Shown piece after piece: positions 1,672 through 4,892 of a DNA stretch of 5,278 nucleotides (positions are counted from its first letter, which is position 1; each line of letters starts with the position of its first letter). The translations under genes were made by a program, and so were the position numbers. Origin of the DNA: Deltaproteobacteria bacterium (GTDB lineage Bacteria > Desulfobacterota > Dissulfuribacteria > Dissulfuribacterales > UBA3076); contig JAUXDR010000092.1 of assembly GCA_030618205.1 (NCBI GenBank), positions 1 through 5,278 on the forward strand. Reading direction: 5' to 3'. The notes under the pieces are model-generated. The model ran no database searches and was not told the origin of the DNA. It saw only the letters and a program-made list of their open reading frames with translations.

Positions 1672-3672
1672 ATGATGGAAGAGCATAAAGGACTTAAGGT
1701 CGCAATTGTGGGTGGTAGTACCGGGTGCAAGGCGATTATGGATATGATATTTGCTGAAACGCTCCGCCAGCTTCACATGGAAATCATAGCGGTCGCAGAT
1801 ATCAATCCAGAGGCTCCGGGTTATCGCTATGCCCAGGAAAACGGTATCTATACGACAATGGATTACCGTGATCTATACAAGCTCAAAGATCTCAACATGA
1901 TCCTCGAGCTGACCGGCCGTGATGATATAGCCAATGAAATCTCCCGAACCAAGCCGGAGTACGTCCGGCTGATGGACCACGTCGCCGCCCGGGTCTTCTG
2001 GGATGTCTTTGAGATTGAAGAAGAAAGGCTTGCCGAGGAGGAACGGGTAGAGGAGGCGCTCAGGGAGAGCGAGGAGAGATATCGTACGGTGCTGGACGCG
2101 TCTCCCGACCCTGTTGTTGTCTATGATATGAAGGGTAAGGTTACCTATATAAATTCGGCATTCACGCGGATTTTCGGGTGGATATCAGGCGAGCTTGAGG
2201 GAAAGAAATTACATTATGTCCCGGATGAGAACTGGCCTGAGACCCAAATGATGATTGATAAGGTGCTGGCAGAAGAGAGTTTTTCTGCTATCGAAAGCCG
2301 TCGATATACCAAAGGAGGAAATATTATTGACGTCAGTATAAGCACAGCTATCTATTTGGATCGGGATGGGAAACCGGCGGGCAGTATCCACACTTTAAGA
2401 GATATCACCGCGCGTAAGCAATCACAAGAGGTGCTGAAAAAGGCTCGCGACGAGCTGGAGCAACGCGTCAAAGAGCGCACTACCGAATTAACGGTAGTAA
2501 ATGAGCAACTGCGGCGCGAGATAGAAGGAAAAAAACAGGTCGAAAAGGGATTGAAGGCCTCGGAAGAAAAATATCGCGTCCTGTTCAACTACGACCCAAA
2601 TTGCCTGTTTATGGTCGAAATGGATTCAGCAAATATCCTTGACTTGAACAAGGCGGCCACCAAGGTATATGAATATGACCGGGAAGAGTTACTGGGAATG
2701 TCCCTTTTCGATCTATTAGATAAGGAAGACGCTCAGCGGCTCAGGAAAGAGCTTGGCCGCCTTGCCAAAGAGGGCGATTACGTGTTTGTACCCAAGCTGC
2801 GGGTCAGGAGGAAAGACAGCGATCATTTCTATATTGATTTTCATGCCAGTGTCGGGAAATTCCGGGAAAGAGAGCGTGGATCACTTGGTCTGTCCCTGAT
2901 TGTCAGGACTGTGGATATTACTCTCGGCCTTGAACGGCAGGCCCAACTGGTTCAGGCCAGCAAGATGGCGACCCTTGGTGAGATGGCGACCGGTATGGCC
3001 CATGAGCTCAATCAGCCCTTGAATGTGATGCGGATGGGGGCCGATTTTGTTGCCAAGATGATACGGCGCGGCCAGGAGATTTCAGACGAACAGCTATTGA
3101 CAGTGAGCCGTAACATAAGTGAGCAGGTGGAAAGGGCCACGAATATCATCAACCATTTGCGTGAGTTTGGCCGGAAGGGCGATTTCAGGGTTTACCCGGT
3201 TGACCTGAACGAACCCATCAGAGATGTGTTTACGATCATGGGCGAACAGTTCAGACTGCGTGACATAGAGGTTAATCTGGACCTGGACAAAGCCATCCCC
3301 AAGATCATGGCCGGCAGGAACCGGCTGGAGCAGATATTTCTGAACCTGATGACTAATGCCAGGGATGCGATGAAAGAAAGAGGGATGGAGGATGTCAAGA
3401 AGATCACCGTTACCACTTATCCGGAAGGAGATTTGGTCGTGGCTGAGGTCTCTGACACAGGTAAGGGCATCCCGGAAAGAATACAGGAAAAGATGTTTGA
3501 GCCCTTCTTTACGACAAAAGAAGTGGGAAAGGGGACTGGCCTGGGGCTGTCTATTACTTATGGCCTCGTAAGGGATTTTAAGGGCGGTATTGACGTGGAA
3601 TCGACCCTGGACGTCGGTACTACATTCAGGGTCCGTTTTCCGGCATATAAAGAGGAGAGGAAATCAGAATGA
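1672..3672 (+). CDS. Soluble histidine kinase: Rossmann-like domain, PAS, PAS, HisKA, HATPase
   Basis: Cytoplasmic sensor kinase of 666 residues with no membrane segment. Residues 7-112 form a Rossmann-like nucleotide-binding fold: beta1 V-A-I-V-G-G-S-T-G (G14, G15, G18), an acidic residue ending beta2 (A-D43-I-N, favouring NAD(H) over NADP(H)) and I-L-E-L-T-G (77-82), as in homoserine-dehydrogenase-type domains. A charged helix (113-135) leads to PAS1 (about 133-248, ending R-D-I-T-A-R-K), a coiled coil (249-295) and PAS2 (about 296-420, ending V-D-I-T). The kinase core has the H-box H444-E-L-N-Q-P-L (HPK4-type), N-box N562, G1 box D595-T-G-K-G, F-box F-E-P-F-F and G2 box G621-T-G-L-G-L, so it looks catalytically intact. 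Neither PAS domain shows an obvious heme- or flavin-binding signature. ATG codons at 1672 and 1675 are both possible; upstream only a weak purine tract (AGAAAGAG) is seen. Its stop overlaps the next gene by 4 nt, so the two proteins are probably made together and act as partners. NAD(H) sensing is inferred from the fold. Confidence 0.93.
3653..3660 (+). promoter_or_regulatory. Ribosome binding site of the REC-kinase inside the upstream gene
   Basis: AGGAGAGG lies in the last codons of the PAS kinase, 8 nt before the ATG at 3669. Together with the ATGA stop/start overlap it indicates translational coupling and fixes the start of the second gene. Confidence 0.7.
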
Positions 3673-4892
3673 AGAAAGTGTTGGTTGTTGACGACGAACG
3701 GCCCATCCTGGATATGCTGGATCTTTCCCTATCCAGTGAAGGGTACGAGGTGGTAACTGCCGAAAGTGGCGAAAAGGCCCTGGAAATTTTCGAGAAACAG
3801 CGCCCCAAGCTCGTCTTGACCGATATCAAGATGCCTGGAATTGACGGTATAGAGGTACTAAAAAGGATCAAAAAAATCGACAGCCAGGTGGAAGTCATTG
3901 TTATCACCGGCCACGGTGACATGAACACAGCCGTCGGCGCACTCAAGCATGGGGCCTCTGATTTCGTAACCAAGCCGCTCCGGGATGAAGTCCTGATGGT
4001 TTCAATAGAAAGGGCATGGAAGAAAATAGCCATGAGCGAGCAATTGCAGGATTATACCGAGAATTTGGAGCTCAAGGCAGAAAAGTATAAAGAGGACCTC
4101 AAAAAGGCCCAGGACGAAATGATAAAAGCTGAGCGCCTTGCCTCTATAGGGGAGACTGTGGCCAGCTTGGCCCATTGTATAAAGAATATCTCCACCGGCC
4201 TGGGCGGCGGCATGTACATGGTCCACACAGGCATGGCTAAAGAAAAACCCGATATGATAGAGGAAGGCTGGTCCATGTTCCAGCGCAACTTGGAGAAGGT
4301 CTCGGATCTCATCCTGGATCTATTAAGGTATGCGAGACAGACAAAACCTCAACGAACGCCGTGCAGACTTAATGATATTGTATCCGAGGTTGTGAGAACC
4401 TTCAAAAAGCATGCTGATAGCCACCAGATCAAGCTGAATAAGGTCCTGGCCTCAAACCTCACCGACGTCTACATTGAACGGAACGGCATACATCGGATGC
4501 TAGGGCACTTAGTCTCAAACGCCATTGACGCATGCATCTATGATGCAGATACGTCAAAGAAATGGGAAGTCACAGTTACGACCAAGACAGAAACGGCTGC
4601 CGGCTCTGGCGAGACGATTCTTATTGAAGTCACTGACAACGGATGTGGGATGACAGATGAGGTAAAGGCGCATCTCTTTCAGAGGTTTTTTACTACAAAA
4701 GCAGGGCGTGGCATAGGCCTTGGCCTTCTGGTTACGCAAAAGATCATTCACGACCATGACGGCGAGATCTTCATCAAGTCAGAGGACGGGAAAGGGACGA
4801 AGGTGTTAGTTCGACTGCCGGCAAAGGTGCTTGAGGATTATTCTCAGGCCCTTTCAGGTACTGGAGAAACACCCACAGGCAACAACGAATGA
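3669..4892 (+). CDS. REC-histidine kinase fusion (response regulator with kinase output)
   Basis: Cytoplasmic 407-residue two-component protein. Residues 1-118 are a receiver with acidic pocket D8-D9, phosphoacceptor D52 (T-D-I-K-M-P), switch T80 and K102-P. A coiled-coil linker (about 119-158) leads to a kinase core: H-box with A-H169-C-I-K-N followed by a G-G-G stretch, N-box N284 (S-N-A-I-D-A), G1 box D323-N-G-C-G-M, F-box F-Q-R-F-F and G2 box G346-R-G-I-G-L-G-L. All catalytic motifs are present. The order REC then kinase is the reverse of the usual hybrid kinase, so the receiver probably controls the kinase, likely accepting phosphate from His444 of the upstream PAS kinase. Its own His169 could then phosphorylate the divergent receiver (inference). 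There is no DNA-binding domain and no membrane segment. The C-terminal 20 residues are polar and probably disordered. No clear terminator follows the stop codon. Confidence 0.93.
   Translation: MKKVLVVDDERPILDMLDLSLSSEGYEVVTAESGEKALEIFEKQRPKLVLTDIKMPGIDGIEVLKRIKKIDSQVEVIVITGHGDMNTAVGALKHGASDFVTKPLRDEVLMVSIERAWKKIAMSEQLQDYTENLELKAEKYKEDLKKAQDEMIKAERLASIGETVASLAHCIKNISTGLGGGMYMVHTGMAKEKPDMIEEGWSMFQRNLEKVSDLILDLLRYARQTKPQRTPCRLNDIVSEVVRTFKKHADSHQIKLNKVLASNLTDVYIERNGIHRMLGHLVSNAIDACIYDADTSKKWEVTVTTKTETAAGSGETILIEVTDNGCGMTDEVKAHLFQRFFTTKAGRGIGLGLLVTQKIIHDHDGEIFIKSEDGKGTKVLVRLPAKVLEDYSQALSGTGETPTGNNE

Follow-up and report, generated by a model that had tools for sequence, protein, structure and literature searches.

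Rossmann proteins bind their ligands at the C-terminal ends of the strands. A GxGxx(G/A) loop is common, not universal, in dehydrogenases that use nicotinamide adenine dinucleotide (NAD) or its phosphate (NADP), and an acid at the end of strand 2 goes with a preference for NAD. Rossmann domains are already known as redox sensors from the Rex repressors, which join a Rossmann domain to an N-terminal winged-helix DNA-binding domain. These redox-sensing repressors are described as sensors of NADH/NAD+ (PMC8836258). Here, we analyze a window of 5,278 nucleotides from a Deltaproteobacteria bacterium (UBA3076; contig JAUXDR010000092.1 of assembly GCA_030618205.1, forward strand) that encodes a soluble histidine kinase of 666 residues, whose N-terminal domain is the Rossmann half of a dehydrogenase-like fold. 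Comparison with its homologues indicates that this domain is a conserved, reusable sensor module common to many related bacteria. Its probable function is to report to them on a metabolic cofactor, for example NADH, and the state that it is in. With a probability of about 0.5, we read it as the cofactor-holding part of an enzyme resembling acylating acetaldehyde or homoserine dehydrogenases that would have been recruited as a cytoplasmic dinucleotide sensor, most likely of NAD(H), driving a phosphorelay through a neighboring kinase with a receiver domain (REC-kinase).

A Rossmann half at the front of a histidine kinase

The open reading frame (ORF) given in an initial annotation, made from the window sequence, is present, and its parts are as follows:

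1672-3672, + strand: soluble histidine kinase, 666 residues (Rossmann domain, signaling helix, PAS, PAS, HisKA, HATPase)
1693-1974, + strand: Rossmann half, residues 8-101 (AlphaFold2, Foldseek, VIA-align, profile match to acetaldehyde dehydrogenases)
1711-1728, + strand: residues 14-19, GGSTGC, putative nucleotide loop (GGGxxC in the family; Ser replaces the middle Gly in the window clade)
1798-1800, + strand: D43, just past strand 2
1906-1917, + strand: E79-L-T-G82, end of strand 4
1975-2001, + strand: D102-H103 ... F109-W110, where strand 5 ends and the exit helix starts
1978-2100, + strand: uninterrupted helix linking the Rossmann domain to PAS A, residues 103-143; putative transmission helix (AlphaFold2 of residues 1-261)
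2074-2421, + strand: PAS A, residues 135-250
2638-2853, + strand: PAS B, residues 323-394 (Pfam PAS_3 stretch)
2974-3177, + strand: HisKA, residues 435-502, with phospho-acceptor H444 at 3001-3003
3316-3645, + strand: HATPase_c, residues 549-658, with N and G boxes

AlphaFold2 models residues 8-101 as a confident Rossmann half (predicted local distance difference test, pLDDT, 89.4; predicted template modeling score, pTM, 0.83), with five strands (8-13, 36-42, 60-62, 76-79, and 99-101) in the alternating beta-alpha order of that fold. By fold and profile together (Foldseek, VIA-align, and a family profile), the top matches in the PDB are NAD(P) dehydrogenases, with acylating acetaldehyde dehydrogenase first; the profile match required the family profile, the single window sequence being insufficient. 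In this alignment, strand 5 (RLID) and the stretch that follows strand 2 (DxxxxGLxxA) are matched to 1nvm_B. Searched against the PDB, the window domain sequence gave a single match, to an Np95-like ring finger protein at E 0.19, which we attribute to chance. The initial annotation had proposed a dehydrogenase-type Rossmann half serving as the N-terminal sensor of a soluble PAS kinase, and the structure prediction and fold search that it suggested returned a Rossmann fold rather than any other.

The absence of a catalytic half, also claimed at that stage, is borne out by the model. In place of the half that carries the active-site cysteine there is one predicted helix (residues 103-143), followed by PAS from about residue 135, and in an AlphaFold2 model of residues 1-261 (pLDDT 86.4) this helix leads without a break from the final Rossmann strand to PAS A; the pTM of 0.55 makes the domain placement in this model loose. 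The kinase (1672-3672) shows no transmembrane-like stretch in a 19-residue Kyte-Doolittle window, its highest mean being 1.38 against 2.78 for the neighboring cytochrome b, and it carries the features of a sensor histidine kinase: HisKA with its phospho-acceptor histidine and the N and G boxes of HATPase.

Several other assignments of the N-terminal domain were rejected. A chance motif is ruled out by 449 homologues together with the confident model. Membership of the acetaldehyde dehydrogenases is ruled out by the missing catalytic half and by the score against TIGR03215, which matches residues 8-104 with 17.9 bits against a cut-off of 282.25, a comparison that covers the window domain alone among 72 members. 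Membership of Rex is likewise ruled out, as the Rossmann domain begins at residue 8 and no helix-turn-helix (HTH) family is found among the 16 Pfam families matched by the kinase at E<=1. The copies of Pfam and NCBIfam scanned hold no model dedicated to the module, and we file the domain under the Rossmann fold, as a fold member with a putative ligand rather than as a proven NAD-binding family.

Conserved residues, the predicted pocket, and spread of the module

Conservation was assessed in 64 profile-aligned, non-redundant copies below 75% identity; copies with more than 12 gaps were excluded from the non-redundant sets, which kept 291 of 342 before the 75% cut. The residues singled out by the initial annotation (G14, G15, G18, D43, and E79-L-T-G) lie where it placed them. 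Its loop, G14-G15-x-x-G18, has to be re-registered: alignment to the GSGNIG of acetaldehyde dehydrogenase gives G14-x-G16-x-x-C19 in the family and G14-x-S16-x-x-C19 in the window. The family loop GGGxxC is nearly constant (G14 in 64/64 copies, G15 in 61, G16 in 62, and C19 in 58), with Gly or Ser at position 19 in five of the remaining copies and Phe in one. Equally strong conservation is found at E79 (64/64) and T81 (63/64), followed by W110 (59), D102 (56), and H103 (54). Ranked by relative entropy, the top positions are W110, C19, P95, H103, and T81. The loops at the C-terminal ends of the strands are more conserved than the opposite side (2.94 versus 2.13 bits, p 0.006), for comparison sets picked after the alignment had already been viewed.

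Serine at position 16 occurs in 27 of the 342 copies, namely a near-identical set of 24 that includes the window, two entries (L009, L059) of a single gene from another lineage, on contigs of equal length, and a fragment (P0162); the orthologues in loci L001 and L002 retain glycine, with the loops GGGIGC and GGGNGC.

The window protein has an acid at the end of strand 2, D43, in what we take to be the place of the ribose-binding acid of NAD enzymes. In the family this position is D in 49 of 64 copies and E in two (51/64 acidic), with C in eight and S in three. In a tree of 174 copies, the deep branches mostly carry D43, as does the window protein, and all 70 Cys43 and all 28 Ser43 copies group, together with one D copy and four other copies, in a single set of 103 rows whose resolution is poor (support 90/83, not starred). 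The tree uses few columns, column 43 among them, with unsettled bootstrap and a midpoint root; it suggests that D43 is ancestral. Cys43 is found in 75 of 186 copies under 90% identity, within the large derived clade.

Some kinases (P0001, P0002, L004:5921-8923, and others) carry between two and four Rossmann copies in tandem, connected by linkers, most with S43 followed by R44 or T44. Among the 38 copies of multi-copy entries, a count that contains near-duplicates, none has D43; positions 43-44 read S-R in 16, S-T in 12, C-R in three, C-T in three, T-T in one, and a gap in three. S-R following strand 2 is known to mark a preference for NADP, so one may guess from the sequences that position 43 splits NAD-reading from NADP-reading copies. 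In the Cys43 copies, such as P0123 and P0138, a second cysteine lies at the strand end neighboring C19, and a disulfide, a metal site, or a redox switch between C19 and C43 is conceivable in this derived clade. No such switch is expected in the window protein, since C19 is the sole cysteine within its residues 1-122.

The module is widespread. A search with residues 1-120 against a database of 5.8 billion proteins gave 543 candidates, of which 449 match at E<=1e-3. Among the 120 matches listed, the window's own protein included, precomputed Pfam labels assign 99 kinase domains, 13 sigma-54 activators, three LuxR-type HTH proteins, one HD-GYP protein, and four with PAS only. The domain order that the initial annotation had thought unlike that of standard PAS kinases is thus one architecture among many. 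By a profile stricter than phmmer, 10 of these 120 proteins hold two to four copies (12 by phmmer); the same profile adds the multi-copy locus L004 and, spuriously, the fragment P0162. An alignment search reached 181 proteins, including short proteins and N-terminal fragments, down to 36% identity among the 120 listed. Four of the short ones (P0178, P0211, P0216, P0164) resemble misassembled chimeras, and P0178, retained in set A2, is the source of the single P5CR_dimer match.

Two tight peptide patterns run against a genome collection matched 69 stretches, 58 of them confirmed as loci. All of these come from metagenome-assembled genomes (MAGs) labeled deltaproteobacteria, Desulfobacteria, Desulfobacterales, or Proteobacteria, except for one Myxococcales MAG. 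Eight genomes picked as carriers have one to nine module matches each (E<=1e-5), and at one locus (L008:3344-7636) three module-carrying genes stand consecutively on one chromosome. In even samples, with seeds included and at E<=1e-10, the module is present in 83 of 297 genomes from the deltaproteobacterial phylum of L027's genome and in two of 140 from the phylum of L054's genome.

Genes of the window and orthologous loci

Five genes can be read in the window, the fifth cut by its end. The four besides the kinase are:

6-620, + strand: cytochrome b561-type protein (PF01292)
853-1299, - strand: single-domain response regulator with D57, divergent to the kinase (nearest family model DVU0259)
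3669-4892, + strand: REC-kinase of 407 residues with D52, H169, and HATPase, overlapping the kinase stop by four bases
from about 5069: start of a CxxCH protein, truncated at the window end

The response regulator scores 97.4 bits against the DVU0259 model, below its cut-off of 160, and by eye has about 30 additional residues ahead of the final strand. The CxxCH fragment within the window matches no family alone; the full-length homologues from L001 and L002 do match one, cytochrome c554 (PF13435). A perfect 15-nucleotide inverted repeat with a 1-nucleotide spacer, terminator-like, lies just 3' of the cytochrome b gene (637-667), and two imperfect, T-rich intergenic repeats of 45 nucleotides (796-840 and 1590-1634, 76% identical) flank the response-regulator gene. 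Rfam gave no match in the window at gathering scores.

The pair of kinase and REC-kinase is kept in two orthologous loci, with identities of 86% and 82% in L001 and of 88% and 86% in L002, and the REC-kinase is the probable next relay step. In both loci, the pair is followed by a c554-type gene, a second kinase, and a REC gene truncated by the locus end. The divergent REC gene is also kept, at 94% in L001 and again at 94% over the 70 residues with which L002 ends. Upstream in L001, the cytochrome b gene is missing and a flavodoxin gene is found; L002 ends short of that place. At a third locus (L020:83-5777), the domains are re-cut: residues 294-663 match a separate PAS kinase of 375 residues (63%), which has no Rossmann-PAS part, and residues 1-268 match the front of a neighboring sigma-54 activator (45%; 67% for the domain alone) that adjoins the REC gene. 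The Rossmann-PAS unit therefore behaves like an input that can be swapped between proteins.

Neighboring genes were compared around 60 module ORFs, from 56 of the 58 loci. Within 400 bases, the recurrent neighbors are response regulators, recognized through clustering and by eye (25 ORFs in 20 loci); the remaining neighbor clusters reach two ORFs at most. For instance, a single-domain response regulator of about 150 residues, presumably Rcp1-like, lies directly 3' of Rossmann genes and overlaps their stop in L004:3322-3771, L011:2410-2871, L012:8216-8680, L018:7586-8047, and L045:7375-7836. The initial annotation had set the kinase between two electron-transfer genes, which holds in the window, with its cytochrome b561-type gene and c554-type start; a general genomic link to electron transfer finds no support in the 56 loci. 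As the neighbors are response regulators and no particular metabolic enzyme, a general cofactor signal fits better than a pathway-specific ligand.

Candidate ligands and comparison with known systems

We infer a scheme that specifies a ligand, a dimeric coiled coil, a direction of control, and relay partners. A nicotinamide dinucleotide, NAD(H) in copies with D43, would bind at the C-terminal ends of the strands, between loop 14-19, D43, E79-T81, and D102-H103. Binding would move helix 103-143, which is located where the catalytic half of the enzyme would begin and which would continue as a dimeric coiled coil into PAS A. This movement would alter autophosphorylation at H444, and the phosphate would pass to D52 of the co-encoded REC-kinase and perhaps also to D57 of the divergent response regulator.

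NAD(H) binding is favored by D43 and G14. Several features weigh against this scheme. The window loop, GGSTGC, departs from the classic GxGxx(G/A) form at S16 and C19, and S16 is the main evidence contrary to tight dinucleotide binding in the window protein. Together with Cys or Ser at position 43 in a large clade, these departures at 16 and 19 would also suit another nucleotide-type ligand, such as coenzyme A (CoA), acyl-CoA, adenosine diphosphate (ADP)-ribose, or an adenine nucleotide. The relatives nearest by fold and profile, the acylating acetaldehyde dehydrogenases, use both NAD and CoA. We nevertheless consider such a ligand unlikely, given that D43, the acid typical of NAD enzymes, is found on the deep branches of the midpoint-rooted tree and in the window protein itself.

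The replacement of the middle glycine by S16, along with the position of the most conserved residue, W110, on the exit helix outside the pocket, could further be explained by a degenerate Rossmann fold that binds no small ligand and is retained for dimerization or protein contacts. Serving as a scaffold alone would not require the greater conservation of the pocket loop face, where G14, E79, and T81 are kept in 63-64 of 64 copies, and this reading seems less likely still. The rank of C19, second by relative entropy, draws attention to a thiol switch in which its oxidation, persulfidation, or acylation would set kinase activity, with or without a nucleotide. The lineages bearing the module are mostly of anaerobic sulfur metabolism, and a disulfide with the second cysteine of the derived clade might form across neighboring strand ends. 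However, cysteine may simply be a small residue that helix packing tolerates, as the Gly, Ser, and Phe found in its place suggest, and a second conserved cysteine is missing from D43 copies, the window's among them; we regard this switch as improbable.

Beyond the window protein, we tentatively propose that the GGGxxC Rossmann domains form an undescribed, interchangeable sensor family spread through deltaproteobacteria, with which histidine kinases, sigma-54 activators, LuxR-type, and HD-GYP proteins might directly read the nicotinamide cofactor pool, NAD(H) where position 43 is D and NADP(H) where S43 is followed by R or T44, the form dominant in tandem arrays. If so, the up to nine such domains of one cell would allow it to gauge several cofactor ratios simultaneously. 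To our knowledge, how the large two-component networks of deltaproteobacterial anaerobes are coupled to their internal redox state is poorly understood, and the module offers a concrete candidate. The domain is soluble, comprises about 135 residues, has a predicted pocket, and comes in naturally occurring position-43 variants. In one open-access library, covered by titles and the starts of abstracts, no description of such a domain was found; as far as these searches go, two-component and sigma-54 proteins have not been described with a Rossmann half as their exchangeable input.

Among described families, Pfam DUF7231 (PF23877) shows a weak likeness over residues 6-45 only, scoring 17.2 bits on the window domain against a cut-off of 27 and matching five of the 72 members at E<=0.01. 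Three of the 120 listed proteins, all of them with tandem copies, bear PF23877.2 as a precomputed label. With the soluble PAS histidine kinases (AtoS- and FixL-like), the window kinase shares the core of PAS, PAS, HisKA, and HATPase with its usual motifs, to which it adds the N-terminal Rossmann sensor through one long helix. The Rossmann half itself is like that of acylating acetaldehyde dehydrogenase (DmpF/MhpF/AmnH; TIGR03215; PDB 1nvm, 8ih7, 4lrs), whereas the module lacks the catalytic half, has Cys for the third Gly of the loop, and is fused to signaling domains. Like Rex, it would employ a Rossmann domain in sensing and not in catalysis; unlike in Rex, the Rossmann half stands N-terminally on sigma-54 and two-component proteins, and no HTH family is found in the window kinase.
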